Assembly: GCF_010093815.1 (NCBI RefSeq)
Contig: NW_022985554.1
Coordinates: forward strand, 1,334,999 to 1,398,998
Origin: Pseudovirgaria hyperparasitica
Taxonomy: Eukaryota; Ascomycota; Dothideomycetes; Acrospermales; Acrospermaceae
Reading direction: 5' to 3'
DNA: 64,000 nucleotides
The notes under the pieces were generated by a model, which did not search any database, was not told where the DNA came from, and was given only the letters and a program-made list of their open reading frames with translations. Both the position numbers and the translations under genes were made by a program. Below are positions 8,955 to 59,537 of the stretch, piece by piece; position 1 is the stretch's first letter; every line of letters starts with the position of its first letter.

Positions 8955-10814
8955 ATGCGGTCAGACTTCCTGCAGTCCATGGACCTCGAGCCTCAGTATG
9001 GCATCCTTATCATAGCATCCTCCATCTTTGTCGCCTTTCTTGCTGGAACGTGGCTGCATTCCAGAAGCAAAGATGGGCAACGAGCGCCTCCTAATTCCAA
9101 TTTGCCGTTCGGGGGTGACCTGCTATACGTCATGTGGGATATGAAGGCGTGTTTTGATAGTGTATTGTGAGTCTTTTGGGAATAATCGTTTGGGGGAGAA
9201 ACCGATCTCCCGGACCGTAGATTAATGCTGATTTTCTGGCGCAGAAAAGCATTTGATGGACTCCCTGTGCGACTTCGTCTGATCTTCACCGACATGTTCG
9301 TCGTCTTTGGTCCGGAAAACGTCAATACGGTGTGGAAGTCGCCCAACCTGCACCATCGAGCGTTCCGCAATGCTTCTCTGAACACCATGTTCAAGATCTC
9401 GCAGGCGCAGCATGACTTTTACGTCTCGGACGATTCGGGGCATTCTGAGCGACCGACGCCGGGGTCCAAGAGACCTCCGCATCTGCGTGTTGATTACGCC
9501 GGAATGAATCCGGTCCAGAAACTGCTGACCGGCCCAGCGTCAAAGCTGCTTGAAGATCGCCTCAATGCGAATTTGTGGGAATACTATACCCAGACCAGCA
9601 TCAGCACATCAGAGTGGACTGACCTGGATGATCTATGGTCGTTTGTGCGAAATGCATGTTCGACGTCGATTTTGAGAGCAATATACGGGGAGCGGCTCCT
9701 GGAGGTTATTCCGACGTTTATAGAAGACTTCTGGACCTTTGACAAGACCATCCACAAGCTCTCGCAGCGGACCCCCCGATGGCTCTGTCCACAGGCGTAC
9801 AAGTCGCGCGACAAATGCATTGACGCCGTCATTAAATGGCACGCCGATATCGAGCCTACCGTCAGAAAGGCTACGCCAGGCGAAGTAGCCTGGAGTCCCA
9901 TCTACGGCACCGATGCCATCCGCGCTCGTTTGACTGCTTGGGCTCAGATGCCCGTCTACGTAGAGGATCCGGGCACATCGGCGGCAGACGACCTCGCATT
10001 CATATGGGGGTAAGTCCCCTTTAAGCACTCCAGCAACACCACCAATTAACACCCCACCAGTGCAAACGCAAACTTAATCCCAGCCTCCTTCTGGATGCTC
10101 GTCGAAGTCCTGCACAATCCGGCCCTCCTATCCGACGCCCAAGCCGCCATCGCCCGATGCACGACCACAACCACATCCACCACGCCCAACACCACAACCA
10201 TCCCAATCGACACAACCGCCCTCTCCACAAACCCCCTCCTCCAAGCCATCTACGCCGAAACAATGCGCCTCCACGTCAGCACCCTCCTCCTCCGCAGCCC
10301 AGCCCGCGTCCCCCTCCCCCTAGGCCCCTACTCCATCCCGGCCGACACATCTATCCTAATCTCCTCCCTCCACGCACACACCGACCGGCGCGTCTGGCAC
10401 AGTCCCGCTTGGCCCGTGGATACGTTTCAGCCGCTCCGCTTTCTCTCCCCGGCCTCGGCATCAGCTTCGGCATCTGCGCACAGGGAGCACGTGCCAGACA
10501 CGCCCATAAAAACCAACACAGATAATACTCAGGAACAGCAGCAGCAGCAAGCACAGCAACTTCAAGACCAGCAATTCTCCCTAGCCCCCTACAAAAACGC
10601 CTGGATCCCCTACGGCGGCGGCGCGAATATCTGTCCGGGCAGGCATTTGGCCAAGAAGGCGATGATGGGCCATCTTGCTGTTGTGCTGACGTTGTTTGAG
10701 TTTGATACTGGTGGGGATGGGGGTGTGCCTGGGGATGATATGGAGCGGTTTGGGCTGGGGACGTGTGCGCCGGATCGGGAGGTTAGGGTTCGGGTGCGGA
10801 GGAGGAAGGGGTGA
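8955..10814 (+). CDS. cytochrome P450, CYP7/CYP8-like
   Basis: Membrane-anchored heme monooxygenase, three exons (8955-9166, 9245-10009, 10061-10814), 576 aa. A hydrophobic anchor lies near residues 14-32. The I-helix reads LAFIWGANANLIPASFW and lacks the usual (A/G)Gx(D/E)T, as in the CYP7/CYP8 class (sterol 7-alpha-hydroxylase, prostacyclin synthase). The K-helix ExxR is ETMR, and the heme loop is YGGGANICPGRHLAKK with the ligand Cys near position 10631. A Gln-rich insertion sits just before the heme loop (QEQQQQQAQQLQDQQ). Substrate is unknown. Exon 3 shows an abrupt change from C-ending to G-ending codons near 10.6 kb. An ATG at 8979 is an alternative start. No neighbouring biosynthetic genes suggest a metabolite cluster. 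Confidence 0.9.
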
Positions 10815-11053
10815 AGGGGTGAGTGAGATGGGGGAGTGTGGAGGAAGGAGGAGGTGAGGGGCGTGAGGGAGGGATAAAGGAACTCAGAACATACACCTTG
10901 AGAAGAAGACATCGAGTAAACCCCTATTAGAACAGAAATTATATATAAGAACATACCACATCCTATCTCAGTCTTAGTCTCGGTATGCGTAGACTCGATA
11001 TGTGAGCATCTAGAGAAAAGAAAAGACTAAAACTCCAAAGGAATAAAAAGAAA

Positions 11054-11171
11054 TGCATCGACCGAGAATCGAACTCGGGTCGAGTCGATATCCTGAAAAA
11101 TGCCCCCTTACCGTAGAACAGAGAAGGGAACGAACTGGCAACGACTCAGTATACCACTAACCCACCGATGC
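11054..11171 (-). tRNA. tRNA-Gly (GCC) with intron
   Basis: Read on the minus strand the gene starts GCATCGG and ends TCGATGC plus discriminator A, giving a 7-bp acceptor stem with one G-T pair. The T arm is CCGAG-TTCGATT-CTCGG. The anticodon stem AGTCG pairs fully with CGACT, and the loop is TTGCCA, then T, with anticodon GCC. A 47-nt intron interrupts the loop at the canonical position after base 37, so the mature tRNA is 71 nt without CCA. The D loop TAGTGGTAT contains the GG pair. The D stem is weak (GGT/ACT) and the anticodon stem is less G/C-rich than the usual fungal Gly-GCC form I remember, so the gene could be a diverged copy. Confidence 0.85.
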
Positions 11172-11239
11172 AACTTCCTGTACAGTTCTGTGATGGATAT
11201 GTATTTATTTGTCTCTGTTGGTTTTCTTTTTGCGAATAT

Positions 11240-11345
11240 GAGGGTGTGGGCAGTGGGGAGTGGGATTGGGGAGTGGAAGTGGGGAGTAGGAGTAGGATTG
11301 GGGAGTGGGATTGGGAAGTGGGATTAGGGGAGTGGGGCTAGACCT
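11240..11345 (+). repeat. degenerate GGAGTGGGATTGG repeats
   Basis: Repeated blocks of GGGGAGTGG(G/A)A(T/G)TGG and close variants fill this interval. The tract is G-rich on the + strand and C-poor, and forms part of a longer G/T-rich stretch downstream of the P450. Confidence 0.6.
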
Positions 11346-11586
11346 TGCATTTTTTTTCGCGCATTTGATCTTTGAGGGTTTACTAGGGGGTCCTAATTAT
11401 GGGGAGAGGGGGGTAGGTTCAGAGTGGATTTTTTTGGGGGGGCTTGGGCTTGGTGTGTGCTTTTGTGCGTTTTGTGCGTTTTGTGGGGGCAGGGGGGGTG
11501 TGGACCACCGTAGATGGTGGATGGTGGATCGTGGATCGTGGATAATTATGCACAGGGGGTTTGGAGACGGATTGGGAGGCCGGGGA

Positions 11587-11660
11587 ATAGGGCAGGATGG
11601 GATAGGGCAGGATAGGATAGGGCAGGATAGGATAGGGCAGGATGGGATAGGATAGGGCAA
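11587..11660 (+). repeat. 15-bp minisatellite ATAGGGCAGGATRGG
   Basis: Four head-to-tail copies of ATAGGGCAGGATRGG occupy 11587-11646 and differ only at the R position. A rearranged partial copy follows to about 11660. Each unit carries a GGG run, so the + strand has regularly spaced G-triplets. Confidence 0.85.
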
Positions 11661-12837
11661 GAGAAGAGGGTAAGAAGGTAAAGGTTTAAGCTGAGAGAGA
11701 GTCTGAGAGAGATTGCGATTACGACGACGTCTCCATATGGGCTCGCTACATCAACTGGCAATATATATAGCAAGCATCTTCAGAGACATGTTCAAGAAGC
11801 GAGGAAGTGTGAAGGTGAAGCTGATTTAGAATGTATTATTAAGTTGGACATTCATTGGAGTGTGCGACGATTCTTCTTTTCTGGACTTCGTCGTGTCGTG
11901 ACATGTCTGGCATCATTTCTGTTCTATTCTGTTCTGTTCTGGGTATGATGCACGTGTATGTGTATTTATATGTGAGTATGTCTGACCAGCCAGGCATAAT
12001 CCCTGAAACTCTACTCCCTCCCCCATAGCATGGGAAGGAATATCGTGCGTCTGCCCGCTATCTTATCGATTACACGTGGCTGTAAAACGTGAGATATGTA
12101 CAGAGACAAGCAGAAGATGAGGCGAGAGTCAGAGAGAAAATGAATTTCGTAACAAAGTGTATTGATCAATATCGTGTCCTCTAGCACCCTATATGTATGT
12201 ATCTAAGAGAATGTTTATCAACTTGCGCCCCCCAAAACCCTATATATCCAAACGAATGTATACGAAGAGAGTGTCAACGGTATCTTCTGACATCAAAAAG
12301 CAACAACAACATCGTTATCATCATCATGCGTATCCGCCCAGCACGCTGGTTGAGAGAATGTAATATAGTAGGACCAGCCAGCCAAGCCGGCGCTGAATGA
12401 ATGTATGAATGAATGGGGAAAAGCGAGTGTGTAGAAGCCATGCTCGCAGCAGCAACAACAAAAAGTCCAGTAAATGAGTGTGGTATCAAGGTAAAAGTTT
12501 CGTGCATGAAGAACAATGAAAGAGATAGTTTGCGTGAACCGGTTGGAAGGGAACGCCCGCGAGATGGATGCAAGCAATGATTGGGTGTCGTTACAAATGC
12601 AGGGATATGCACCAAGCCTGGGAAATGCAGCATGAGGGTATGTATGCATGTATGTATGTGGCAAACGCGAACAAACGAGTAAAAGATATCATGGCCTTCG
12701 CGGTGGAACTCGGTTATTTTTGGCGACAAGAACAACAACTGAGGTGGAAAGGTCTCACGGTGCGTGAGCCGGTGCGTCAACTATCCAACATATTAGCCAC
12801 CGCACGCCAATATTCAAAGCTTCAACATTTGCGCATT

Positions 12838-15800
12838 CTACTCACAATCCAGTGTGAACATCATCCGGTTATGGCCCTTGTCGGTCCAGTCCCACTTCCG
12901 CAACTTTGCCAGCTCGTCGTCCAGATCGAACTGCCAGCTCTTGATCTCCGCGACCGTCCGGCCGCCGTGCCCATGTGAGAACCGCACACCTGGACCGTCG
13001 CCCTCGAGCTCTGGTGTGCCAGTTCCAAGGGAGGTCGGAGAGAGCTCCCACCAGTCGAGAGAGTGGTAGTTTGGTGTTTCGATACCAGGAGCGATGTGGG
13101 AGTAGCTTTTGACTGAGACTGCGTCGTCGTCACAACTGTTTTCGTCGTCTTCCATGGAGACTTCGAGCTGGGGAAGGACGGGGGATTCGGGTCCCCAGGG
13201 CGCGTCGTCGGTTGTGGATGCATGCTCGAGGACGACAGCGGCAGTTGGAGATACTAATGTAATTCGTAAGCATCGTTCCAGTGTCACAGCAGAGAGCCGA
13301 CTGTCTTACCGAGATCAGCTATAGAAGGTTCAAAGGCGCTTGGTTGCATGACTGGTGTGTTCTTAGCGAGCAATGGGGAGTGTTGTTGTATTATAAACCC
13401 AGGGCTGACAGGGGAAAAGGTCGTGACTGCGGTAGTGGTGGTGGCTGGAGGAACGTCTATGACTACTTTGCGTCAGCATGTGTTTTACCAACGTAGTAGG
13501 CCATATTGACTTACTAGTCTTTTTTGTTGGTGGTACATATACAGTTGGTGCTAGAGTTGGTAGTACAGGTTGATGACTGACCATTGGAGCTGCTGTCGCG
13601 GTGCAGCTTGCAGGTGGAGGCGCCGAAAGTACTTGATTTGATAGACTGCCCGAGCGAATCGATGTAGCAGCATTAGACTGACCTGCCTCCCCCGGCCCGA
13701 TGATATTGTTGGACGATGCTGGTCCAGTTTGTGTCGGTAGAGAGGCAGCCTGATAAATGCTATGTTAGTACCGTCTGCCTCGATCCCGTCGCAGAGAGAC
13801 GAGCTGGTAGTATCTCACCTTCTTAATGGTGGTCGCCTTGTTGACTGGAAATATACTATACACCGCACCCTTCCCATGCTTGGTGACCGGTGTGCGTGGA
13901 GATCGCATACCATTCCTGTTGAACTTGGTTAGCGACTGGCTTACAACTGAATACAGAAGAAGAGTTGACTGACTTGCTGACGCCCCGGGAACGGCCCCTG
14001 TTGCCTTGTCTTGAGCCGCGTCGAGAGGGTTTTCGATTTACCGTGTGCTGCTACACGCCAAGATTGTTAACGGTGTCCTCCAAGACCCCTTGATCTCAAC
14101 TTACAGACGGGGGAAGTCGCGTATCCAGTCGTAGTGAAATATTCTGCCTTGACGCAGTAGCTGCTAATCTCGATATTGGTGCAGATATGCCCGTATGTGG
14201 TGCGGGTTGGAGAGCCGGCGCAAATGGCATCTGACTCGGCATTGGGTGCTCGGAAGTCTTGACATCAGAAGCTTTTGTGGACTCTTCAGTCTCATACTGT
14301 TGTCTCGAGTACCACGTCTCAAGCGGTGCAGCCCCTTCAATCGTCGTTTTGCGTTCATGCCGGGTATCGTCAATGAGTTGCTGAAGCTTGACTTGGTGCT
14401 CATCTGGATTCTGGATGAACTTATCGAAAAGAGAATTTGCCGCAGCTATTCTCGACTTGTAGTAGCTGCTATCTCGGTTTTGCTCCTCTTTCTGAACCGT
14501 AAGCAAGGACTGGTCTCCCGAAGAAGTTTGTGACTGGTTGACTGGCTCTGACACTCCAGCCTCGTACAGCTCATTCGAGTCCACTTCTACCGCCACGTGT
14601 GATTGGGACTCTTCAATTTTAATTGATGGCGATCTAGCTCCTGACGACGTAGGGACGATGATCTGCGTATTACTTTTAGCTCCGCTGTTGGAAGTGTCGC
14701 TCGGCATCTCACGCTTTCCCATTTGGGTCTCACTACTGCAAACATGCGAAGTGGGCGCAAGTGGTCGCGATGCCAATGCTGCATTGAAGGCGGTAATGTC
14801 AAGTTTGGGAATCTTGTCCCTCGACCCAAGTTTCTCGTGGCGCAGACGCTCTCGCATTTCTGCTTGCTGGGCGGCTGGGACTGCGTTTGGACCACGCATT
14901 GGGATGATTTCGTCTACAGATATCTTTTCCTTGCCCAACGATTTGACCGTTGTATAAGCTCTGGCCCAGCTGACTGAGGTACGGGGACGCTCAAATTGGC
15001 GCGCCTGGGGTTCGTCTTGGATAGACGTACCCTGCCTCGTCAACGTTAGCCGCTTCATGACCTTTGAAGCTATTTTCATCTCGGATCGGGATCCTGAGCG
15101 ACTTGATCCTTCTAGAAGCGACTGTGTCGATGGGCTACTCGCTCTCGGAACAGCTGTGGCGTCATTCTTTATCGCCTCTATTTGCATCGACGGGCCTGCT
15201 ACCTGGGTATCGACGGCCTGTGGTGCTGTTGTTGCCCATTCCGGCACAGCCTCTAGGGGCAGTGGTTCGAACAATGGAGGTAATTTTTCCGTGTGATGTA
15301 AGTCGGCAAGAGATCTACTTCGCCGACGGATGTTGAGAGACTGCGGCATCAGTCCTTCAGTCTCGAGTGAGGATGATACACTATCTGATCTTGTTACAGT
15401 AAGCGGACGGGCGGCCCAGAAAGCTTGACTTTCGACAATCTCGCTGTCTAGATCAGGTGCAGATGAGTCAAGACCTGCAGAGTATACTGAGGACGGACTG
15501 CTGGGAATTCGGGATAGTGAAGATTTCTGGCGGTGGAGAACATGTGATGCTGACGACATTTTTCGTTGGGAGGGCCTCTTGGAGGAGACAGAAGCCATAC
15601 TGCCCGAACTGTCCGATCGTGTTCGCGACGATTGAGTGCTTGATGACTCCCAGTCGCGTCGATGCCCTCTGACACATTGGACGTCTTCTCTCTTGTCTTC
15701 GGCTTTCGAGTTAAAAACGGGCTCAAGATTTTTGGCAGCTGCATAATATTGCTCTTTGTAAAGAGAATCTGGACTCTCCCAGCTGGAAGTATGGTAGAAT

Positions 15801-18461: not shown

Positions 18462-20852
<2,391 letters not shown>

Positions 20853-22182: not shown

Positions 22183-22301
22183 GCGGGTACTACAGCATAT
22201 CTCGAGTGCATATCCTAGCCAGAGCGAGGCTGCGACAGCATAGAGGCGGACTCCGATGTATTATACGCATGATCATAGAGAAAAGCAGACTAGCACTGCA
22301 C

Positions 22302-23027: not shown

Positions 23028-23283
23028 GCCGGCCACTTGCCAGTATGCTCGTTGACCTTCATGATGGGTAGATATTGTTGAAATATAGTGTTTGTGGTCG
23101 AGAGACCTTCGCTTGCCTAGTTGGTCGGCTCGAAGACGATCCGGTAACGAGTGCGTTGTACCGATGACGGACATGCGACGTTATGCTGGGAAAGTCAATA
23201 GTTGTAAACTTTGTGGCATCAAAAACACACTTGCACCCTTGAGGTAAAAGACCAAATACCGAGACTTAGCAAAATCTATACGA

Positions 23284-24484
23284 ATGGTCGGCGCTAAGCG
23301 AGTTCTGGTCACTGGCGGAAGCGGATTCATAGGCAGTGCCATCATCAAGGCATTCCAGGATCAACGACCAGCATACGACCTCGTTGTCCTCGACGTACAG
23401 CCTCTCAAGGCCAAAATACTTCAAAAGTCCACAGTTCGTTATTTTCACGCAGACATCACAAACGAACATGAGGTCTCCAAGGCGATCGGCGCTGCAAGAC
23501 CAGATGTTATAGTCCATGTCGCCGGATATGTCCCCAGCGGCAACAGCAGATATAACCAAGCCGAGCGAGACTACACTTTCAAAGTCAACGTCCACGGTAC
23601 CGAGAATGTTCTCGCGGCAGCGCGACAATTCGGCGTGCAATCCCTCGTGTATACCAGCAGCTGCACCGCCATCACCGACCACTCCGCGCACGACTACCCA
23701 AACATGACCGAAGCCCTCCCAGTAGGCTCGGCCACACTGATCTACGGCGAGTCCAAGGTCTGCAGAGAACCCACAATCTTCGATCTTGACACTAGCCCTG
23801 CTGACCCCCATCCAGGGCATATCCGAGCGCCTCGTCCTCGCAGCAAACAGCACGCACCTCAAGACATGCGCCCTACGACCCTCGACCGTGTTCGGCGCCG
23901 GCGATACCCAGCTCATCCCAACCATCCACCAGTGTATCGCCAAGGGCGAAACCCCTTTCATCGTAGGCACCGGGTTGAACCTCTACGACTTCAGCTTCGT
24001 GTCCAACATCGCAGACGCCCACGTCCTGGCTGTCGGAAACCTGCTCGACGGGCCCGGCACCGCCGCCGGCGAGGCCTTCTTCGTCTCAAACGGCCAGCCG
24101 GTCCCGTTCCGCGCGTTCTGTCTCGCTGTGTGGGCGCAGTTTGGGCACTATCCCCCCTTTGAGGTCAGGTTGCCTTGGGGACTGGCGTATTTTGCGGGTT
24201 TTGTGGCGGAGATTGGGACGTTTGTGACGGGGAGACCGGCGACGTTGAGTCGTGGTAGTGTGAAGGATGCGTGTCAGACGGCATATGCGAGTATCGAGAA
24301 GGCTAGGACGGTTCTTGGGTATGAGCCCAGGGTGTCGATTGTTCATGGGTTAAGGGAGGCTTGCATGGTAAGGTTCGAGGGTACTGTTGAATTCGTTCGG
24401 CTACTGATTCTATTACTTCAGGACTACAAGCAGCGGCTCGAAATCTGCAACAAGAAGGCTTGTTTGCGAACAGTGCATCAATGA
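23284..24484 (+). CDS. 3-beta-HSD / sterol-4-alpha-carboxylate 3-dehydrogenase-like SDR
   Basis: NAD(P)-dependent extended short-chain dehydrogenase related to Erg26, which oxidises and decarboxylates C4-carboxysterols. Exons 23284-23757, 23816-24367 and 24422-24484 give 362 aa. The nucleotide-binding glycine motif is TGGSGFIG (residues about 10-17), the catalytic motif YGESK spans the first splice junction, and downstream RPSTVFGAGD, DFSFVSNIADAHVLA and GEAFFVSNGQP follow the 3-beta-HSD family. A hydrophobic segment LPWGLAYFAGFVAEI lies near 285-300. It could be a paralogue acting on another steroid or terpenoid rather than the essential Erg26. Exon 2 switches from C-rich to G/T-rich composition near 24120. 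Confidence 0.9.
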
Positions 24485-40199: not shown

Positions 40200-40362
40200 C
40201 TTGCGTGCTTTCATTTTTCTATTTATATTCTTACTCTAAATGATCTACAACACAGGACGACGCGGAACGATACCCCCTGGGAGAGAGAGTGTGTGTTGTT
40301 GTTAAATAGTTTTATTGATGTACCAGATTACCAAAATACCCCAAACCGCCTTCAGTCGACTC

Positions 40363-41626
40363 TCAGTCCACCACTCTCCTCAACTTCGTCCCCCAAGCCA
40401 TCCTCTCGCCCGCATCCTGCTCACCCGACCCAGCGCCCCGAGATCGCCGCACGGCCTCCCCTCCTCTCTGCAACATCTCAACCTGGTAGGCATCCAAGTT
40501 GGCGAGCAGGTCTGCATCATCAGACTGGATAAGCACACGCGCAAGGTTCAGCGCATCTCGAATCGCCTGACAGCCGCCCTCGCCGCGAACTAATGGACAT
40601 TGTCAGCATCAGCAATCCTCAAAACACAGGGGCACAAGAAGGAGGTAGTGGTAGTCCGGCAAACGTACAAGGCGTCATAGGATGCGCCGCATCCCCCATC
40701 AGCGTCACCCGCGTCCTCGGCATCCCCGGAATCACCGCATCGCGCAACACAAGCCGCGGCCGATGGATCCCCTCCTCGCCCGTAAGATGAATCAACCGCG
40801 TCAACTCCGGCTCAAACGCCGCCGCCATCTCCTTCGCAACACACAGCTGCTCCGCCGCCGACTGTTCTGCGTCAGGCGCGCTTTTCCCCGGCGCATCGAT
40901 GATCATGTCCCAGTAATACGCGCCTTCCGCCCCGTCGTCGGAGATACGGTCGAGCCCGACGAACAGGTGTGTGTTGGACGGCCCAAATGCAACGTACGCG
41001 GAGCGCGCGAGGGAGAGTTGGTGCGCGAGCTCGGTGCCGCGGACGCGGAGTTCGCCTGTGATGAGCGTTACCGGGACGAGGGACGGGTGTGTGTCGGGCA
41101 GGATGTGGGCGCGGACTTTACTCCCGACGCCGTCTGCGCCGACAATAACACGGCCCGTGGCGTGTGTGCCGTCGGCGAAGTGTGCTGTTACGGATGCAGC
41201 ACCGGGTGCTTCGGAGATGGAGACGAGGTGTTTTGCGTATTCGACGGGGATGTGAGTGCGGAGCAGCTGTGTGAGTTTAGCGCGGTTTGCGCGGATGATT
41301 TTGTGCGAGGGCGTGCTTTCGACAATGTGTTTTGTGCCGGATGGGCTGTAGAGGGCCATTTGGGCGGTGTGTTGGGGGAGGGGGAGGAGGTGGTTTGTGG
41401 TGTCGAGGGAGGGGACGTCTGGGGGCATTGCGGTGGTGAGTTCGTCGAGCATGCTGTGGAGGGCGATGGCCCAGCCTTGGGGCCGGGCGGTGGGGGAGGC
41501 GTCGCGCTCGAAGATGCGGAAGGGGATGTTTTGCTTGCGGAGGGCTTGGGCGAGGGTGAGGCCTGCTAGGCCGGCGCCGATGATGAGGATGGGGAGGGTG
41601 GTGGTGGTGGTGGTGGTGTTGGACAT
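40363..41626 (-). CDS. FAD-dependent monooxygenase (PHBH-type)
   Basis: Single-component flavin hydroxylase, exons 41626-40669 and 40589-40363, 394 aa. FAD-binding GxGxxG lies at LIIGAGLAGLTLAQAL, the DG motif at VGADGVGSKVR and the GD motif at LMGDAAHPMTPFRGEGG, the last crossing the intron. A poly-Thr stretch precedes the first beta strand. Substrate is unknown; relatives hydroxylate aromatic or polyketide compounds. No obvious metabolic partner genes flank it. The + strand changes from C-rich (3' half of the gene) to G-rich (5' half) near 40.98 kb. The start is the last Met before the Rossmann strand; an in-frame ATG at 41770 would add a His/Thr-rich leader. Confidence 0.9.
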
Positions 41627-42208
41627 GGTTGGGGATGAGGATTGGGGCTTTTGGTGGTTTGCTTTGTTATTTGTGTGTCTGTGGGTGGGTCGGGATGTGT
41701 GTGTAGGATTATGAGGTTTCTCAGAAGTTTTTATAACTATATGTACGACTATCACGTCACTGGGTGGCATCTCTGTGTGTCGGTGTCGGTGTGCTTTGCG
41801 ACGGAAAAAGATTGTTTGCCAAATGCCGAGAGCGAGATCATCACTTCGGCCTTGGGATGTTGTGCGAGGGAGCCTGGCTCTGCTTAGGCCATATCATATT
41901 GGTAGATAGCTCGCAACGCTCTTATGAGTCAGGTAATTACTACTCGTGTAGGCTGTGGCTTCGGTCATTGAAATGTCTTGCCAGAACGACCGAAAGGGGG
42001 TTGAAGTTGACGATAGAGAGCTGTGCCTTTATGTACGGCCTGAGACAGACGCGCTCAGTAGTTTTGAGACCGGAACCACAGCCTCACATTCTCCTCTGAC
42101 TCTGACTCTGACTCTAACTCCTCCTTCAACTCAGCATCAGATGAAATGTAGTCAGACCTACTATTCCCGTAGTGGACTGCTCTCAAACTTCAACACACCG
42201 ATGCAACC
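41627..42208. other. divergent promoter of FAD monooxygenase and ankyrin gene
   Basis: 582 bp between divergent starts. The first 90 bp are strongly G/T-rich on the + strand, continuing the skew of the monooxygenase 5' half. A (TCTGAC)n tract lies at 42094-42120. No gene is seen. Confidence 0.45.
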
Positions 42209-43994
42209 ATGTTGCTCCAGCTTCCCAACGAGCTGCTGATCGCCATCACGGCAGAGGTCAGTCGAGTGATAGTCGCCATGCCTGGTATCAAGTATCAAGA
42301 GTTGACCGTCTCAGATCAAGGACTTTGTTGCCTTGCTAGCTCTCGCAGAAATTTCGCCTCGCACCTATGCTATCGCCATGCCGTTCTATGAACAGGAAAT
42401 CAAGACCTTTCACCCCCAAGACCCGCTCCTCAAAGCGACGTACCGCGGCTGTACATTCGCAGTCGAAACGCTTTTGAAGCAGCGAAAGGACCCGGCAAGC
42501 AAATGGATGCGTGGCATCAGCAAGGTAACCTCTTGGCCTCCTACTATGCTCCGTCGATATTTCTGACACGCGCAGGGCTATCTCACCCACAACTTCGCGC
42601 TGCTGCATGCCGTCGAACATGGCCAAATGGACATTGCTAGGCTCCTACTTGAGCATGGCACGAACCCAGAGACTAGACGCGGCAGGCAGGGCACCGTTTT
42701 GCAGTTCGCAGCGTGTATTGGCAATCCAGCCATGGCGCAGCTGTTGCTCTCGCACGGAGCAGATCCGAACGCCACGGGCGGCGCGAATGGCTTCGCGTTA
42801 CGCGCAGCAGCGCAAGCCGGTCATCTGGAGGTTATCAAGGTATTGCTTGACGGGGGCGCCAAAGTCAATATGCGACACAGACGCGACTCCGCAACAGCAC
42901 TGCAGTCGGCAGTGCGGAACAGGCACAATGCAGTTGCAATGTACCTGCTGAGTCGTGGGGCCGATGACAACGAACATGACGATGACGATTCCTTTGCGGC
43001 CGGCAAGACATTCCGTGCAGCTCTCGACGTGCATCAGAGGCACGGCAACATGGAGATATTGACGGAGCTCGTGTCCAGGCTGGAAGTCGACTCCCTCGCC
43101 GCAGTCAACAGTCTAGCATCAGCCGCCAAATCCGGCGACGCAGCCATCGTCAACCTCCTCCTCCACCACGGCATCGACATCACCAAGACCGGCGTCCGCG
43201 CCCTCGGCATCGCCGCCCGAGCCGGCCACCTCCCGATCCTCAAAATCCTCATCGCCGCCGGCGCAAACATCAACGGCCAAAACCACACCAAAGGCACCGC
43301 CCTCCTCCGCGCATCCATCGCCGGCCACACCGCCTGCGTCAGCCACCTCCTCGCCCACGGCGCCCTCGTCAACATCACCACCCCATCCGGCGCCCGCCTC
43401 ATCCACAACGGCTGGTCCTGGACCCCGCACTTCAGCACCGCCCTCCAGGCCGCCTGCTGGCACGACCACACCCCCATCGCACAACTCCTCCTCGACGCCG
43501 GCGCAGACCCAAACACCTCCTCCGCCGCCCGCTGGTTCGCCCCGCTCAACCTCGCCGCCTACCGCGGCAACATCGCCCTCGTCCGCCTGCTCCTCGACGC
43601 CGGCGCCGATGCTTCCGCGCGTGGACAAAAGTACGCCGACACCGCCCTCCAGGCCGCCACACAGCGTCGTCGTCACGATATCGTGCAGCTTCTCCTTGAC
43701 CGCGGCGCCCGCATCGATGGCTCTGGCGCGCTGCAGAATGCGTGTGGGGCGCGGTATGCCGAGGTGGGCGATGTCGCGCTTGTGCGTTTGTTGCTGGCGC
43801 GTGGTGCGGATCCGAATGAGCGGGCGGATGCGTATGCTGTTACGGGGTATATTAGTGCGATGAATGGGCCGGGTGAGGTGTTTGTTAGTGCGCTTGAGGT
43901 TGCGAGGCGGCGGGATGGTGGTGGTGGTGAGGGCTTGGGCGGTGATGCGGGGGAGATTGTTGAGTTGTTGCTTCAGCATGGTGCGGTGGGGTGA
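42209..43994 (+). CDS. F-box-like N-terminus plus ankyrin-repeat protein
   Basis: Exons 42209-42256, 42315-42524 and 42576-43994 give 558 aa. The N-terminus LLQLPNELLIAITAE looks like the first helix of an F-box, suggesting a ubiquitin-ligase adaptor, but the rest of the box is poorly matched. At least ten ankyrin repeats follow (for example HAVEHGQMDIARLLLEHG, QAGHLEVIKVLLDGGAKVN, RAGHLPILKILIAAGANIN, RRRHDIVQLLLDRGARID). One repeat is interrupted by an acidic NEHDDDDS insert. Composition changes within exon 3: balanced to about 43.08 kb, C-ending codons to about 43.69 kb, then G/T-ending codons. The stop TGA overlaps GGTGAGT, which resembles a splice donor, so a further 3' exon cannot be excluded. 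Confidence 0.85.
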
Positions 43995-44298
43995 GTGTGT
44001 GTGTGTGTGTTTGTGCTGTATACATGGGCACGTATTCGCTATCTTACTAGGTTGTTGTTCGTGGGGTTTGTTGTGTTGTATTATCACTATACCTCGAGCT
44101 CTGAGGCTCTGACGTTCTGTTCTATTTATAGCAGCAGCAGCAGCAGCACGCTTCCAACACCACACCAACATACCATCATTCAACCATCCATGCTCTCCTC
44201 TCTGAATAATAATAATAAGAATAATAATCACTTATCCATCCATCCATCCATCCACCCACTACACATAGAAAATGCACCTTCCCAATCCCAAACATAAT

Positions 44299-44350: not shown

Positions 44351-44414
44351 CCTGGACCCCTGACCCCTCAAAACCCCCAGATCCGGCCCCCTGCAACACA
44401 CCACGCTTCATAAC

Positions 44415-44416
<2 letters not shown>

Positions 44417-44509
<93 letters not shown>

Positions 44510-44519
44510 NNNNNNNNNN

Positions 44520-44611
<92 letters not shown>
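44417..44611 (+). repeat. (AC)n microsatellite with assembly gap
   Basis: An almost pure AC dinucleotide tract of about 185 visible bases is interrupted by ten N at 44510-44519. The N run is a gap, so the true length is unknown. Such long AC tracts can form Z-DNA and are length-unstable. Confidence 0.97.
44510..44519. other. assembly gap (10 N)
   Basis: Ten N bases lie inside the AC tract. This is most likely a collapsed or unresolved repeat, with an arbitrary gap size. Confidence 0.98.
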
Positions 44612-44616
<5 letters not shown>

Positions 44617-45007
44617 TACCCTTCCCATCTCACCCACGCCCTCCACACGCGGCGAATAGTGTGTTAGTAGTGTTGCAGGTTTGTATCGTGTAGTCTTGGT
44701 TTGTGTATGCATGCATGAATTTGGGGGCGTGCTTAGAGAACGGGGGAGATTGTATGCATGTGTGTATAATATCTCATCCTGCCCCGGCCTATGCGATGCG
44801 ATGTATGCTGGTGGATGGAATGAACTTTGCTACTACTAATTTTTCTTGTTTTTTCTGAAAATAGGCGTCTTTTCTTCCTTGGTTTTAAAGCTTGTTGATT
44901 TCAAACGGGTTATCGCTCGTTGTTGCTGTTGAGTGCAGTGACTGGTTCACTGATCTTATTTTATTGTAATACGACGACCAGGCTCAAAGACATCACGAGC
45001 TCGAAAC

Positions 45008-45556
45008 ATGGCGCGACTACAGCAACAAGCTTCCTCTACACCACTTCTCCTCATCCTCCTCGTAACCCTACTGGCCCTCTCCTCGGCTCCCACCCTCACA
45101 CTCGCATCGCCCACCACGAGCAAAACCACAAACCAGCACACGGTAGCACTCATCCACCCCCGCCAAGCAGCCTCAGCAACACCCGACACGCGCTGCACAA
45201 GCTACCTCCAAACTGCACGTCTGGCAACAGTAGGCGGCAACAGCACATACCGCACCGCATACCTACAACTCTCCCGCCAAGGCACAAACGCCAACCGGGT
45301 GCTTCTCAACGCCGCCGTGGCAGCGCTGCCGGCGCTGACGGTGGACAAGGGGCTGAATGCGCAGTGCGGGAACCTGACGGAGCGGGTGGCGGCGCAGACG
45401 GAGGAGGAGTTTTTCGGGGCTGGGGTTGTGCTTGGGATTGGCGGGGTGGGCGGGTTGGACAGTCCGCCAGGGAAGATTGTGGGGAGTGATTGGACGTTGG
45501 TGTTGATTGTGGCGGCGATGTTGGGGGTTATGATGGGGACGTGGAGTATGTTGTGA
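45008..45556 (+). CDS. small secreted or GPI-anchored protein
   Basis: Single exon, 182 aa, function unknown. The N-terminus MARLQQQASSTPLLLILLVTLLALSS is a signal peptide. HPRQ near residue 50 may mark pro-peptide cleavage. The mature part has only two cysteines and N-glycosylation sites NST and NLT. The last 20 residues are hydrophobic (WTLVLIVAAMLGVMMGTW) with small residues before them, consistent with a GPI signal or C-terminal anchor. Codons end in C in the first half and in G in the second half, with the change near 45.31 kb. Only protein features, not homology, support it. Confidence 0.7.
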   Translation: MARLQQQASSTPLLLILLVTLLALSSAPTLTLASPTTSKTTNQHTVALIHPRQAASATPDTRCTSYLQTARLATVGGNSTYRTAYLQLSRQGTNANRVLLNAAVAALPALTVDKGLNAQCGNLTERVAAQTEEEFFGAGVVLGIGGVGGLDSPPGKIVGSDWTLVLIVAAMLGVMMGTWSML

Positions 45557-45682
45557 GGGTGAGGTGGTTTGCAGGCTTATGAGAGATGAGGGATGTGTGT
45601 GTGTGCAGAGATGGGTGGGGTATTTGAGTGTCTATTGTTATATTTTGCTGAATGAATATATGCATACATACATGTCGATACG

Positions 45683-53000: not shown

Positions 53001-53616
53001 TGCCAAATACAAGAAGAAGGCATTTGTTCGAAAGTTACCCGAAGCAATGCCTCACGTCCATTCTCCAGTCGAGCCACTCGTCATGGCGGTCAAGAAGAAC
53101 GACCTCCAAGGGGTTGTGTACGCTCTCGCTGTCCCCAAATCGACGGACACGGATGAAAATGCGGAGGTGACGGCAGCCATCAAGTTTCGAAAAGAGGCAG
53201 TCGACCCATCCCGAAAGACATCTGTAGTCTATCTGGCCCTAGCCGCTGCCGATCCTGCCTCTCCTGCCGCCACTGCGTCACCCCTTCACTCGCCCAACCC
53301 GGCCATAAATCGGCTATCAAACTCGATACGGAAGCTCTTCACTGTTGCTGAGCTACTGCTTCAGAACGGGTTCGAAATCCCCGTAGAAGACTCTCCCTTT
53401 CCCCTCTCACCATCTGCAAAACTATACCTGGAACAAAAGAAAGGCCAGCGATCAGGCATCCCGCCGCCGCTGCCCGTCACAGATGGCGCAGACGAGCAAT
53501 ATACCGCTCTCCCTCCCTTACCACAACCAAGTAACGACCGGTCTAGGTCGGACGGCAAGCTTCAGAAGCGCATCAGCACGACTAATCGGTTAACGAAGCC
53601 GCCCGGGATCCCGTAG
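50043..53616 (+). CDS. BAR-PH-ArfGAP protein (fungal Csx2/ACAP-like)
   Basis: GTPase-activating protein for Arf, acting on curved membranes. Six exons (50043-50106, 50163-50293, 50349-50747, 50799-50865, 50918-52172, 52224-53616) give 1102 aa. The start MGNVSS fits an N-myristoylation signal. Residues 1-220 form a fungal-type N-terminal region of unknown fold (NVTPNAFPASRFNVKRD, LRLSNDDTLTFTFTFVLR). A BAR-like helical region spans about 320-560 (RDFEQRTSNIRARWKKVLKKAE onward). A PH domain spans about 640-760 (KFWIVLNQGKLLEYANWK ... VKSWIGAIQNAI). The ArfGAP zinc finger is CADC-x17-CFQC with the Arg finger in CSGVHRGLS, at about 805-840. A degenerate ankyrin-like tail with Pro-rich end follows. 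Confidence 0.93.
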
Positions 53617-54014
53617 GCCAACTTCACTCGTTGAAGCCGCAATCCTTCTTCTTCTTCTTCTTCTTCCTATCCTGCTTCCCCCTCCTCCCCGGCGCAATGG
53701 CGTTTTGGTTTACTGGGCTCGGCACGGGCAGTCATCTAATGAATGGCATACAAATATGATATCCAATTGCATAACAGCGATCGCACCCTCTTTCTTCCCC
53801 CCAACCCTGCAACCCCCTTCCTTCTATCCGCGGGACCTCAACGAACCTAAACCCAGAATATACTATGCTTTCGCAGTTGATGGCGTTGGTGTTCTTAATT
53901 TTAATTTTTTCTGGATTCGGTGCTTTGGAGAGAGAGAAAGGGGTCTTGGTGTAATGATGATGATTATAAATTTCTGTCTGGGTGGAGGGTGTGTATGGGT
54001 GTAGGCTTTGCGGG

Positions 54015-54095
54015 CTTTGAGGGCTTAAGAGGCATGAAGGCTTGAGGGCTTAAGAGGCATGAAGGCTTGAGGGCTCAAGGGCTTGACGGCTTGAG
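54015..54095 (+). repeat. 25-bp tandem duplication GAGGGCTTAAGAGGCATGAAGGCTT
   Basis: Two near-perfect 25-bp units in direct tandem are followed by degenerate GGCTTGAGGGCTCAAGGGCTTGA remnants. The tract contains the GGCTTAAG core repeatedly. Confidence 0.75.
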
Positions 54096-54348
54096 AGAGT
54101 GTTTGTGTCCTGTCCTGGCCTATCCTGTCTGGTCCTGTAGATTGGATATGATATGTTAGTGATGTGTCGAAATCAGGAATTTGATGAGGTTTTCGTGTGC
54201 GTGTGTGTGTGTGTGTGTACTAATGATATATTCTCGTCCCCCCCCCTTTCCCTTTCCACCTAAAGTCATGCATATCCAAATGCCCGATTGCCTAATCTAT
54301 AACCCTACTACCCACATCTTCAAATGCACTTGGCACATCCACATATAT

Positions 54349-54375
54349 CTCCATCTCCATCTCCATCTCCATCCC
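54349..54375 (+). repeat. (ATCTCC)n hexamer tract
   Basis: Four to five head-to-tail ATCTCC units. This is a simple repeat with no evident function. Confidence 0.8.
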
Positions 54376-54479
54376 TAAACCCCCATCTAAAATCACGGCC
54401 CTAGCCCCAATCCACAATCTGCAATCTCGATCTATATCCATCCACACCATGCATACCCTTCGAATACAAAAGAAAAAAA

Positions 54480-54540
54480 AAAGAATAAAAGAGGAGAAAA
54501 GAGAGGAAAGAGAGGAAAGAGAGAGAGAGAGAGAGAGGGT
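54480..54540 (+). repeat. polypurine GA-rich tract
   Basis: About 60 bp of nearly pure A/G, starting with A-rich units, passing through GAGGAAA repeats and ending in (GA)n. Mirror-symmetric polypurine DNA of this kind can form triplex structures. Confidence 0.8.
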
Positions 54541-55382
54541 GAGAAGAATGCGGGGTGAAGAGAAAAAAGGGTGGGGTAGAACGTGACTTGTGGCTTGATT
54601 TGTATGGTATGCTAGGTGGTTATATAGCTTAGTTGTTGTAGTATGTTATACTAGGTATACTGTGTTGCTATTCATTAGGGAGTGGCAGATGGAGGGAATG
54701 AATGGATTTGGTGGGTGTAATGCATGTGTTTGATGGGTTTGATGGAGGTGTTAATAGGTGGTATCTAGTATGCTCGTTGCGAGTATAATGTGATATAATA
54801 TAGCGTACCGTACTATACTGTACACCGCTGTACTATACTATACGATACATTTAATACATCAACGACCACTCTTTCCTAACCCGAACTCGCGTCGCTCCTT
54901 CCTGCCTCATTCTATGCATAATTAAAAATTGTATTTGTATTCAAAAGCATGATGTTGGTGTTGGTGTTTGGTCTAGTTCTCACGAATGCCTTCTTACATG
55001 ATAGTCTGCGCAGAGCAAAGTGAGAGGCACTGTATCTACATGCTCGTCTGCTTGAGTCTCTCCTTACTGACTTCGTCCTTATTTTCTTGTTTTCTCACCA
55101 GGACGTCTAGAACGTCCCGAAACACAGACTCCAGCGCGGTGGGAGGGTGGTGTCCACGCTGGTTGTTGGAGGAGACGGGAAGGAGAAGGGGAGGGGCAGA
55201 TATTACATCATTCGTGTCCTTCTCCCTCCCGCTCTGGGTCGCCGGGTGGTGTTACCGGCCTGGCCTGCCTAGGAAGGTTGTACGGCGGCGAGGGTATTCA
55301 GGAGGATCCCCTTCCTCGCGTCGTTGGATCGACATATCCACTTCGATCGAGACCAAAAAAGTCCCGTAATAAATACGCCTGT

Positions 55383-56893
55383 TCAAGTCACAGATCCCAC
55401 AACAGCAAGCGGCCAGTCCAGCCAAGACACCCACGAGGGGCCCAATCTGTCAGCAATAGGCCGCACCAGCATCCTGCCAGCATCTCCCACAATCCACACA
55501 TCCGAGTACGGGTGCAGGAGCGCGGCATAGTGCGCAAGCACGACGAGCGCCTGCGCATTACGCTGCGTGAGGAGGGCGGAGTATTCGTCCGTGAGAAGCG
55601 CGGGCCAGTTGAAGAGCATGCTCCGCTGCGAATACGACGATGAGGACGATGACGAGGGGGACGACTTCACGCCTTCGGCATCGGTCGCCTTGCGCGCCTG
55701 GTAGTGCTTCTCTGCCACGGCGACGAGATGGAGGTTACGGATGGCCTCCTTGAGCGCCGTGCGCGCGCTCTCGTCCAAGTCCCCAGAGGCGTCCGGCAAG
55801 CCCCACAGAGGGTCCAGGAACGCCGTCTCGCCGCCCGGTGAGTTTTCCCCTGTGCTCAGTTCTGCCGTCGCCCGCGCGATGAGCGGCGCGAGTTCGCTCG
55901 TGGAGATGTCGTCCCAGGACGTACCGGCGATGGCGCGCACGCCGCGGTGCACATTCATGTAGTCGATGAACTTGTCCAGGAAATCGGGCGTGGCGAGGTT
56001 GTCCATGTCCATGTCTACGTCCGACTCCACCCGGTCCGGGCGCACGATGTCGGCCAGCGTGTGGTTGCTCAGCAGCGAGGCGAAGAGCAGCATCGACACG
56101 CCTTCGCGGCTGTCTGCTGCCGCGACCGAGTCCTGGAAGGCGGCGAGTGCTTGGGTTTGGAGACGGACGGCCTCGCTGCGGTAGTGCTTGCTCTGGGAGG
56201 CGCTGCCGGAGCGGCTCAGGTGCAGTGCTGCGAACGCAAGCACCTCGTACATGAGATATGGCGCTGATGTTGCCTTGGCCATGAATAGCTTGTAGACTTC
56301 TGTGTCGACGAGGTACACGCCCATGCCAGACTGAGGCCCCGCCTCGAGGAGGAAGTGACTCAGCAGGTGCAGATGGTCGATTTGAAGGTCCGGCGAGGCG
56401 TTGGAGCTGTCATTATGGGGCGAGAGGACGTTTTCGGATGGTGGAGTCAGTGTGGTTGCCGAGGGCGAGGCGGAAGTGGCAGTGGCCTTGGTGGTAGTAG
56501 TAGTGGTAGTGGTAGTGGTGGTGGAGTTGGATGCAGGGGTGAATCTGATATAAGTACAAGTAATGCGGGCATGCTGGCAGTTGTTGCATGCTGGCTGGGT
56601 CTCGTCGCACTGTATGGCGGTTTGTCAGTCTCGAGGCGGGTTTTGGCATAATAGCCTGTTCGGTCTTTGACGCTGATAGCATGATGTATATATATATATG
56701 GACGAGGCCCAAGTCAACAGGGGAACAGGTAACCGGTACAACCCAGAACCAGCCCCAAAGCATATCGTTTTCAGCAACACAAGCACTATAGATCCAATAG
56801 CGACGCAAAAAGGGGCATACTGCTGACCTTGATATGACGCCGCTTGCAGTCCTTGCAGCCATGCCTTGACTTGGTATGGGTTCGGCGTGGCAT
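55383..56893 (-). CDS. Zn2Cys6 transcription factor, Upc2-like zinc cluster
   Basis: Fungal binuclear zinc-cluster regulator, exons 56893-56828 and 56609-55383, 430 aa. The zinc cluster reads GCKDCKRRHIK in exon 1 and CDETQPACNNC ... ITC in exon 2, giving six cysteines with the CKDCKRRHIKCDE signature shared with sterol regulators of the Upc2 type and many related factors. A poly-Thr linker follows, then DLQIDHLHLLSHFLLE, typical of the middle homology region of this group, and a helical regulatory domain (VYKLFMAKATSAPYLMYEVLAFAALHLS). The splitting intron is 218 nt, much longer than others here, and lies inside the zinc cluster. Target genes are unknown. The Met at 56324 would give a form lacking the zinc cluster. 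Confidence 0.9.
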
Positions 56894-57763
56894 GATTGAT
56901 AGACACTCTCGACACTAAGCAGCGGGATGGATTTGGCAGGCAGGCTAAGACCGCTCCCGGGACTGTAGTACGACTTGAGACTTGCGATTGGAAATTCTGA
57001 GATGATATTGCCGGACGAAGTGAGTGAAAGAAGAAGCGTAAGGCCGAAGAGAAGAGAGATATGAATACGACGCGTACGTCGTTGCTATTATTGGCCGGGA
57101 GGGGCTGCTAGCCGTTTAAGACTAGACTGGAGACGCTAGTGATACATGCTAGCCTATCCTGGTTAGTCTGAATGTCACTCCTCAGCTCTCGATATCAACT
57201 CTGATTACACATGTAGCCTGTACTTGCACAAGTATATATATATTTCCTCTCTCTTCATAGGATGTGACTCTGAAAATATCGATAACGAGAAACATGGTTG
57301 CCAGTCAGGCACGGAGTGCGATTGTACTGGACATTCTCTAGAGACCGTGGTGGCCAGAAGGGGATTAAGTAAGAAGATGACAGCACTCACGTCTGAATGA
57401 CACCGCAAGACCTCTTAGCAGTCTATCACAGGGGCTACATCTGAGACTGCTGCTCGTCTAGCCATGGTGAGTGAATAATGTTGGAGCTCTGTGTACTAGA
57501 TCTTGTGATACTGATGATACATCAAAGGTCCATCAGACTCGACAGGAGACTTATTTGACATGACTGGACGAAAGCAGATAGTACAGTGTCGTGAGCCTAG
57601 AATCTTTATTTTCTATCCCAACGTCAACTCGAAGACGCAGATCCGCCGTTGCAAGTTCTATGATACGTACGGACGAACGACAAGCACTGTTAGCACAGGA
57701 GAGTATGTGATATAAACAATATACACAACCACAACCACAACATACACACACCCACCCAGCCAC
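56894..57763. other. intergenic region upstream of Zn2Cys6 gene
   Basis: 870 bp between two minus-strand genes. No gene is seen. The right end (57720-57763) is C/A-rich, beginning the skewed block of the HsbA locus. Confidence 0.4.
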
Positions 57764-58339
57764 TCACGCCGCCGAATCCGCATAAAACGCAACCCCATCC
57801 CTCCACGCCAAATCAACCTCCACGGCCCCCGCCCCAGCCTCCGGCAACGCATCAACCGTCAACCGCAACCCCGTCGCCGCACTAAACGAATCATGATCAA
57901 ACAGAATCAAATTCAGCGCACTCAAAATCGAATTATCATACCCAGCAGCCCGGAACTCCGCCTTCTTGGCCTTGACATTCGCAACCAAGACGGGGATGCT
58001 GACGCCGACGGAGCGCGTGACAGCGGTGGCAATGGCGGCGCTCTCGGGCTGTGTGAAGGCGCCGGAGGTCTTTGCGGCGTCGTAGGCGATGCGGTTTACG
58101 CGGTCGATTTCGGCCCAGCCGTGGAGGATGGGGTCGATGGATGAGGTGGGGGTGTAGGCGAGGACGGCGGTGTTGAGGGTGCGGGTTTCGCGGTCGATGT
58201 TGTAGATGCCTTGCTCGACGGCGCGGCCGTTGGAGGGGAGGGATAGGTTTATGGTGTCGGGGGAGGAGGAGGGGGTGGGGAGGCTGAGGGCTGTGGTTGA
58301 GAGGGCGGAGAGGGTGGTGGTGATTGTGCGGAAGAGCAT
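57764..58339 (-). CDS. hydrophobic surface-binding protein A (HsbA) family
   Basis: Secreted or cell-wall protein, single exon, 191 aa. The N-terminus MLFRTITTTLSALSTTALSLP is a signal peptide, and the mature part has no cysteines. The HsbA-type helical domain covers roughly residues 35-170, with regularly spaced Leu/Val/Ile and the segments IDRETRTLNTAVLAYTP, GWAEIDRVNRIAYDAAKT and VTRSVGVSIPVLVANVKAKKAEF. In Aspergillus such proteins bind hydrophobic surfaces and help recruit lipolytic enzymes; the role here is inferred from the family. On the + strand the gene is C-rich at its 3' half and G-rich at its 5' half, with the change near 57.97 kb. Confidence 0.85.
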   Translation of the reverse strand: MLFRTITTTLSALSTTALSLPTPSSSPDTINLSLPSNGRAVEQGIYNIDRETRTLNTAVLAYTPTSSIDPILHGWAEIDRVNRIAYDAAKTSGAFTQPESAAIATAVTRSVGVSIPVLVANVKAKKAEFRAAGYDNSILSALNLILFDHDSFSAATGLRLTVDALPEAGAGAVEVDLAWRDGVAFYADSAA

Positions 58340-59537
58340 TTTTTTTGGAGAGATGGGGAGGTTGTTGTTTGTGGTTGTGGGGTTTTGGGCGGGGGTAAAC
58401 GAGAGTGATGGTTTCAGGCTTTTTGTATATTCATGTCAAAGGGTTTTGGCTGTGGAGCTATATTAGTGTATGATGCGATGGACAGACGGTGCCGAGGCAT
58501 ATCAGATTTTGGGGCATAAGTTGGCATTTGTTGTGGAGGGTCTTGCCCAGCGAGTGACGCTAGCTTCTGAGGAGCCTACTGTTGACGCCAGACTGAGACT
58601 TCAAAGGAGACATCGTATGGGACTTGGGGCTTCGTTATGGCACAATGATGTTGACGATCTATTTGGAATGCACATGTGGTCAAATCAGCGAATGTTCGCC
58701 GGCTACCAAGATCCCGCGCTGTGGTTGATCAAGGCTAAATTAGAGAGGACGCGGATCCGAATGCTAAAGATCTCCCTATCTCTCGCGGGCCTACAGGTAT
58801 GATATCCCTATCATCCAATTTGCATATAGAGAGCGATATAGAAAGACCAGCAACGATGTCAGAGCAGGAAGAAGAAGCCAAAGCTAGCATATACATAGAC
58901 ATTGACAAGTGCAACGTATCGACACGCCCATGGCACAACGCGCCACGATTTAAGAGGCACAATACGCCACAATACGCCACAGTACGCCGCAATGCGCCAT
59001 GATACGCCATGATACGCCACAATACGCCACACAATACTCAATCACGGATCGATGGAACTGCCAGGTATATATATGTATCTATATGTACAGAGAACAAGAG
59101 AAAAAAAGCTGGTGATGGGGGCATCAGGTATGCGTGACAATAGATAACGGTAGGAGGGACCAATATGCTGATGATGATGATAATGATGATGTTCAAAGGG
59201 CAGCTATGACCCGGTATTTCTCTCTCTCGTTCGTTCCGGACTCCCCGCCTCAAATCCCAGTATTCTCCATATACATTTCTCTCTATCTCTCCCGCCGAGC
59301 ACTACATAGATCATACATTATGAAAAAGATGTGCTGCTGCTGCTGGTGCCTGCTGTGGAGAACAAAAGAGAAGAAAAAGCACCTGTATCGGGTGGTAGGA
59401 TTGGCAGCTATTTACTGCCCCGGCGGCTCTCGACCAGGCTCTCATTAAGGATAAATCTCAAGAAATATTCAAACGTGATGTGATTTTAGCAAAGGATTAG
59501 ATGCTGTGGCACACTCTCTGGCGCGTACCACTCTTCA
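58340..59537. other. intergenic region with decamer minisatellite
   Basis: About 1.2 kb between two minus-strand genes. The first 70 bp are G/T-rich, continuing the HsbA skew. A perfect-period decamer array lies at 58961-59030. No gene is supported. Confidence 0.5.
58961..59030 (+). repeat. 10-bp minisatellite, seven AATACGCCAC-type units
   Basis: Seven consecutive 10-base units without a spacing change: consensus AATACGCCAC with substitutions such as AGTACGCCGC, AATGCGCCAT and GATACGCCAT. Degenerate half-units flank both sides (CGCGCCACGA on the left, ACAATAC on the right). The ten-base period equals about one helical turn. Confidence 0.9.

Follow-up and report, generated by a model that had tools for sequence, protein, structure and literature searches.

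A sharp C/A-to-G/T strand switch inside a class of genes in a fungal genome

Introduction

The closest described system is the intragenic skew of McLean and Tirosh (2011; PMC3315797), whose accessible text reports that the GC skew of fungal genes has opposite signs at their 5' and 3' ends, that transcript starts are C-biased, and that the skew changes significantly in 33% of C. albicans genes; it leaves the cause open between two hypotheses. Here we describe a related pattern in a stretch of 64,000 nucleotides from Pseudovirgaria hyperparasitica (hereafter the window; G000:C6:1334999-1398998), part of a genome of 35.0 Mb in 59 contigs. Inside single genes of this stretch, the coding strand switches sharply from a C/A-rich block to a G/T-rich block. 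An earlier sequence-only reading of the window had pointed out six such switches.

The published skew and the one described here are alike in that the coding strand is C-biased on the 5' side and G-biased on the 3' side, fourfold degenerate sites and amino-acid use are affected, the bias spreads beyond the coding sequence (CDS), and many but not all genes take part. They differ, as far as the accessible text of PMC3315797 goes, in that the switching genes here form a separate strong class (18 of 110 open reading frames, ORFs) with a sharp boundary and near-complete bias. In addition, AT skew flips here, whereas it is flat there with A over T throughout; the switching class here has a high G+C share at third codon positions (GC3); and the remaining ORFs show only a weak drift from C to G, with a flat share of keto bases (G and T). 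We take the pattern to be an extreme form of the 5'-C/3'-G skew published for fungal genes. What is new is the separate strong class, the sharpness, the simultaneous flip from A to T, and the link to GC3.

Two other systems show partial likeness. The strand asymmetry around human meiotic breaks, in the part of PMC7615360 that is accessible, also has amino and keto bases changing sides about a centre, with none in the central 100 bp; however, it extends over about 2 kb and is set by the break sites, whereas here the 3' extent seems to follow the gene end. The bimodal GC3 of grasses (PMC2895627) likewise sets a GC3-rich group of genes apart within a single genome, but the accessible portion of that paper mentions no strand reversal. 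Two papers on GC content in gerbils (PMC7403616, PMC6573468) describe no strand flip in their accessible parts and are not used as support. Among the titles and abstract openings searched, no paper described a class of fungal genes that switch sharply and almost completely, and on codons ending in C or G nothing relevant turned up at the same depth. The remark in the sequence-only reading that no standard annotation exists is correct as such, although the general skew does have a published precedent (PMC3315797, accessible text).

Results and discussion

Occurrence and direction of the switch

The main sample was a single stretch of 264 kb on one contig, consisting of the window and the adjoining 200 kb upstream. 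It contains 110 ORFs, picked by codon score and length; these are predicted single open frames, with approximate starts, stops and introns. Pfam matches to HsbA, P450, ATG5 and a Mug190-type C2 domain, together with the gene names, are consistent with a fungus. We defined a switch as a change point from C/A to G/T at third codon positions, measured by the keto share, and called it strong when the log-likelihood (LL) gain exceeded 20.

On this definition, 18 of the 110 ORFs have a strong switch and none has the reverse change. At LL above 10 the numbers are 24 forward and 2 reverse. The block order is the same for genes on the plus and the minus strand, as had been claimed. Across 2,200 within-gene shuffles of third positions the 99% point of the gain was 6.5 and the maximum 11.3. 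In the stretch examined, about one predicted gene in six carries the flip from C/A to G/T, and equal switches in all genes, which the sequence-only reading had named as grounds for dropping the idea, were not what we found.

Its other proposed check was a shuffle of synonymous codons. With each ORF split into halves, 21 of 110 had z above 3 and 5 had z below -3. The P450, FAD monooxygenase, small secreted and HsbA genes of the window gave z of 7.5 to 9.9, well beyond the shuffles, while the result was weaker at the other two loci: the ankyrin gene reached only 2.5, its switch lying late in the gene, and the dehydrogenase only 2.65, its ORF being partly in the wrong frame.

A scan of the 264 kb that ignored genes gave 22 upward and 8 downward steps with 400-bp arms at a threshold of 0.2, and 7 against 1 at 0.3; with 200-bp arms it was barely directional (24 against 20 at 0.2). 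Some of its peaks are simple repeats. An example is the 200-bp array of AC dinucleotides at 44417-44616, between the ankyrin and small secreted genes, which has the strongest local skew of the window and appears as a false switch in such scans.

In 40 kb from two other contigs, comprising 19 ORFs, the best gains were LL 19.3 and 12.3. The longest run of ORFs lacking an LL >20 switch in the main sample is 29, at about -148 to -64 kb relative to the window (P 0.04). Clustering of switching ORFs was considered and rejected, on this gap (P 0.04) and on adjacency (P 0.29).

Which genes switch

The switch goes with GC3. A difference in keto share of more than 0.5 between the two gene halves was seen in 12 of 15 ORFs with GC3 of 0.7-0.8, 5 of 25 at 0.6-0.7, and 2 of 69 below 0.6, but not in the one ORF above 0.8. 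The keto difference was better described by a mixture of two components than by one (Bayesian information criterion, BIC, 92 vs 125), and the switching genes form a separate strong class. By Pfam, its members include P450s, NmrA, FAD monooxygenase, ankyrin and HsbA proteins, and also ORFs matching ATG5, a formyltransferase and a BUD23/WBS-type methyltransferase. These last three ORFs run counter to the suggestion that the pattern is confined to accessory genes, and we rejected that restriction.

The claim that the pattern is not common to all genes holds: 79 ORFs have no switch, and the keto share is flat at 0.48-0.52 in non-switching ORFs (78 ORFs). Between the first and last 60 codons of non-switching ORFs (79 ORFs), third-position C goes from 0.30 to 0.26 and G from 0.24 to 0.28. 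The strong class is therefore apart from, yet of the same sign as, a weak general trend.

One alternative is that the pattern is the published skew and that sense transcription alone produces it, the initiation and termination phases exposing or repairing the strands differently with no need for antisense transcription. The sign and place of the bias are as published, it reaches fourfold sites, flanks and amino acids, the end of the 3' block tracks the gene end (see below), and the 79 non-switching ORFs drift weakly in the same direction. However, the published trend is gradual, an average in which AT skew stays flat (PMC3315797, accessible text), while here there is a separate class (BIC 92 vs 125), a sharp switch, and a change from A to T as well. 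We regard sense transcription alone as an unlikely explanation.

Members of the same families were then compared outside the main set. Of 105 P450 matches, 10 loci were chosen for long open frames, and 3 of the 10 switch (LL 13.7, 41.3 and 69.7). HsbA was sampled at 11 of the 12 other places where it occurs outside the window; one locus is strong (LL 42.5) and four are moderate (LL between 10 and 14). Switching and non-switching copies therefore coexist within one family, in both P450 and HsbA.

Alignment of family members showed where the switch lies. In three HsbA copies (window 57764-58339, L043 and L038) it falls at a common alignment column, within 2 codons. The P450s at window position 10641 and at L032 share a switch column to within 1 codon, which we take to be at the haem-cysteine motif. 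In the other three switching P450s the switch lies 73-94 columns upstream, at positions mutually within 20 columns.

Shape and composition around the switch

The average profile was obtained from 12 genes by cross-validation: the centre was set on odd codons and the share read on even codons, and the odd-codon test shifted the centre by 0 to 23 codons among the genes. The transition spans about ±15 codons. At 15-25 codons ahead of the centre the keto share stands at 0.30, and by 8-15 codons past it the value has reached 0.86. The bias rises away from the switch on both sides, from 0.86 to 0.94 on the right and from 0.46 to 0.23 on the left, as it would for two domains fed from the gene ends. 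In single genes, the support interval of the change point ranges from one codon to about 160 bp. No shared motif was seen by eye across the 18 switch centres.

At fourfold sites within 300 bp before the switch (12 genes), the base shares are C.63, A.15, G.15 and T.07; within 300 bp after it, they are C.08, A.02, G.71 and T.19. First and second codon positions shift as well, from a keto share of 0.42 to 0.62. The protein is affected too: Thr, Ser, Ile and Gln are commoner before the switch, and Gly, Glu, Val and Arg after it. Of the ten ORFs with the top z values, 9 start out A-rich and turn T-rich or neutral in AT skew, and the P450 of the window remains A-rich.

Where the blocks end

The outer ends of the blocks were located in the 18 switching ORFs with the direction of change fixed and with four search spans. 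On the 3' side, the distance from switch to block end correlates with the distance from switch to stop codon, with rho of 0.77, 0.69, 0.86 and 0.45 (n 14, 14, 14 and 15 of 18; p 0.095 for the fourth span). The median absolute deviation of the block end is 39-60 bp about the stop and 82-113 bp about the switch, permutation of the pairing gives P of 0.009-0.047, and the median lies 59 to 104 bp past the stop across spans. The 3' side seems bounded by the transcript. The 3' block end keeps closer to the gene end than to the switch point, and this speaks for transcription more than for an independent, free-standing site.

On the 5' side, the median block end lies 78 to 110 bp before the ATG, but it tracks the ATG only at wide spans (rho 0.55, n 16; rho 0.72, n 18). 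A flank metagene, from which 14 of the 110 ORFs were left out (13 with |LL| of 8-20 and one for a missing flank or start), gave a keto share of 0.88 in the last codons, 0.67 at once past the stop, then 0.58, and 0.49 from +100. Upstream of the ATG it was 0.37 over the nearest 50 bp and 0.43 over the next 50 bp. The blocks thus overrun the CDS ends as had been claimed, mostly by tens of bases. Two predicted introns match the bias of the block in which they lie, with a keto share of 0.24 in a 5' block (25 inner bases) and 0.62 where a 3' block ends; two such matches are little evidence.

The main alternative is recombination. Long-lived intragenic hotspots would raise GC by biased conversion, and strand-specific handling of mismatches on the two resected sides would give mirror-image skews about the break. 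In agreement with this, GC is 0.62 at the switch compared to 0.50-0.55 at 1 kb, and the observed/expected ratio of CpG is raised, at 1.21 and 1.25 in the blocks against 0.92; on account of the raised CpG we rejected CpG decay as the source of the pattern. The accessible text of PMC7615360 describes strand asymmetry flanking human meiotic breaks, which is lacking over the central 100 bp and, for some changes, peaks away from the centre, and that of PMC5844332 describes exon-internal hotspots in Zymoseptoria. With narrow spans no clear tie between the 5' block end and the ATG emerges, and three HsbA copies (to 2 codons or less) and two P450s (to 1 or less) have a switch column in common. On the other hand, the 3' block seems to end at the gene end and not at a fixed distance from the switch; damage to 3' overhangs would, by our own reasoning, give the opposite block order; and biased conversion is described as extremely weak or absent in Zymoseptoria in the accessible part of PMC5844332. 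We consider recombination hotspots a fairly unlikely cause.

Replication origins inside genes are a further candidate. Leading strands rich in keto bases are the usual sign of an origin. However, the blocks are just a few hundred bases long, the 3' ones stop at gene ends, and 18 origins in 264 kb would be very dense. Local origins are highly improbable.

Selection and RNA pairing

Selection on codons or messenger RNA could act through a slow start, avoidance of C towards the 3' end, or structure. The bias is indeed strongest at third positions, and the 3' flank (0.67) is weaker than the last codons (0.88). Against this, it enters the flanks and predicted introns and alters amino acids. Furthermore, five additional stretches carrying families that are usually highly expressed (GAPDH, three HSP70s and an EF-Tu family member) gave 0 of 5 ORFs with a switch, where the families stand in for expression, and we rejected high expression as the cause. 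There is also no extra RNA pairing: 600-base folds across 12 switches were close to within-block shuffles (z -2.7 to +0.4), and the proposed pairing between the two halves is not supported. We regard selection as improbable. Codon choice alone is likewise not supported, given the shuffle maximum of LL 11.3, the affected flanks and the lack of a switch in the 5 ORFs of usually highly expressed families.

The local-alignment score for inverted repeats was high at 2 of the 12 loci, HsbA (z 7.8) and a locus at -187 kb (z 5.2). At HsbA the two arms of the repeat (25 nt, 76%) are CA-rich ends that lie beyond the CDS. A hairpin or true inverted repeat was therefore rejected as an explanation, given the absence of extra pairing and the position of the HsbA repeat in CA-rich flanks.

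The six loci of the window

All six switches named in the sequence-only reading exist, five of them identified by the ORF change point and that of the dehydrogenase in the frame of a later exon. The pattern proves stronger than that reading had put it.

The P450 gene fragment (plus strand; Pfam p450, E 1.4e-17) has its change point at 10641 (LL 50.4, keto share 0.26 to 0.96). Its 5' C/A-rich block covers 10023..10640, and a predicted C/A-rich intron on the same strand at about 10010-10061 lies partly in this block (inner keto share 0.24). The 3' G/T-rich block covers 10641..10873 and ends about 62 bp past the stop, an end that is poorly bounded, with G/T-rich repeats next to it. The intergenic G/T-rich stretch after the fragment contains G-rich tandem repeats at 11242-11656 (GGGAGT-like, ATAGGGCAGGATAGG units).

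The 3beta-HSD/epimerase-type dehydrogenase (plus strand, assigned by Pfam) switches at 24127 (LL 39.2, keto share 0.24 to 0.86, support 24097-24130, in the frame of the later exon). Its ORF changes frame, presumably at an intron, and hence it is not counted among the 18. The C-rich part of the later exon covers 23800..24126, where 23800 is only the start of the tested stretch, and the G/T-rich part covers 24127..24369. The last exon, read by eye at 24422-24484 on the plus strand, is balanced. The keto share is 0.67 in the G/T-rich part, 0.62 in the predicted intron and 0.44 in the last exon.

The FAD monooxygenase (minus strand; FAD_binding_3, E 2e-11) has its change point at 40865 (LL 64.9, keto share 0.21 to 0.89). 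The switch had been placed at 40.98 kb; it is real, but its support of about 40861-40933 lies 50-120 bp further left. The 3' block, C/A-rich on the plus strand, covers 40322..40864, running past the stop to a weakly bounded far end, and the 5' block, G/T-rich on the plus strand, covers 40865..41798, about 28 bp beyond the ATG at 41770.

The ankyrin-repeat gene (plus strand, assigned by Pfam) has its change point at 43728 (LL 69.0, keto share 0.29 to 0.94), between a 5' C-rich block at 43090..43727 and a 3' G/T-rich block at 43728..44127. In the small secreted-type ORF (plus strand) the change point is at 45323 (LL 47.9, keto share 0.20 to 0.90), with the 5' C/A-rich block at 44968..45322 and the 3' G/T-rich block at 45323..45650.

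The HsbA gene (minus strand; HsbA, E 2.1e-19) has its change point at 57989 (LL 82.2, keto share 0.08 to 0.95). The 3' block, C/A-rich on the plus strand, covers 57714..57988 and ends 53 bp past the stop, and the 5' block, G/T-rich on the plus strand, covers 57989..58545. It is among the purest genes: third positions on the coding strand of its first half are C 0.84, A 0.12, G 0.04 and T 0.00.

Long ORFs run antisense to switching genes at window positions 40655-41566 (plus strand) and 43122-44231 (minus strand). As candidates for real genes, antisense ORFs were rejected, since the two that were tested (L019:7640-8659:+ and L018:1533-2342:+) have no Pfam family.

A proposed transcript-anchored substitution bias

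The explanation that we favour, tentatively and as something short of probable, is a strand-asymmetric substitution bias arising from mutation and repair, anchored to the transcript and coupled to a rise in GC. The coding strand would be driven to C and then A between a position near the gene start and a point inside the gene, and to G and then T from there until just past the gene end. In the most concrete version, sense and antisense transcription would converge. Transcription in the sense direction, starting at the promoter, and in the antisense direction, starting at the 3' end, would each push its own non-template strand towards C/A, and the two domains would meet at the sharp switch. That substitution and not selection is at work, that transcription causes it and that antisense transcription takes the second part are inferences. 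The convergent version would explain why the two halves mirror each other, why the 3' end is bound to the gene and why the bias grows outward.

Several points weigh against this explanation. Travelling polymerases would not obviously produce so sharp a boundary, and Chen et al. (PMC4844684, accessible text) argue that transcription-linked mutation alone cannot explain skews of transcribed strands. The block ends are not uniformly tied to the gene: 3' ends lie at -153 (methyltransferase) and +300 (FAD gene) relative to the stop, 3-4 of the 18 genes have no clear 3' block end, and the G/T block of the dehydrogenase ends about 115 bp before the stop, short of the last exon. The 5' block end does not track the ATG at narrow spans (rho 0.18, n 9; rho 0.15, n 10), and the block stops 463 bp inside the ankyrin gene and 209 bp inside the ATG5-type gene. 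No promoter-like composition was found beyond the stop in the flank metagene, and the orientation of the downstream neighbour does not differ (8 tandem and 10 convergent vs 55 and 36, p 0.30). Two-fold sites are not mirror-symmetric, with A/(A+G) of 0.50 on the 5' side and T/(T+C) of 0.87 on the 3' side. Finally, two of the 110 ORFs show a moderate third-position change in the reverse direction (LL 17.6 and 15.3); these are L015:3629-4753 (plus strand) and a plus-strand ORF 62.3 to 61.1 kb upstream of the window start.

Implications

Taken further, the switch may record, like a fossil in the sequence, two opposed and long-lived processes, each specific to one strand, that act within a single transcription unit (sense from the 5' end, antisense from the 3' end) and come together at one fixed position in the gene. 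Genes would enter this state whole, gaining GC and changing amino acids as they do so. This reading is doubtful, but if it were true, antisense domains could be read from DNA alone. The presence of switching and non-switching members within one family turns the matter into a testable question, with a mappable coordinate in each gene. If the share of 18 in 110 holds elsewhere, gene finding based on GC3 or codons, codon-usage measures and selection tests would go astray over a sizeable part of such a genome.

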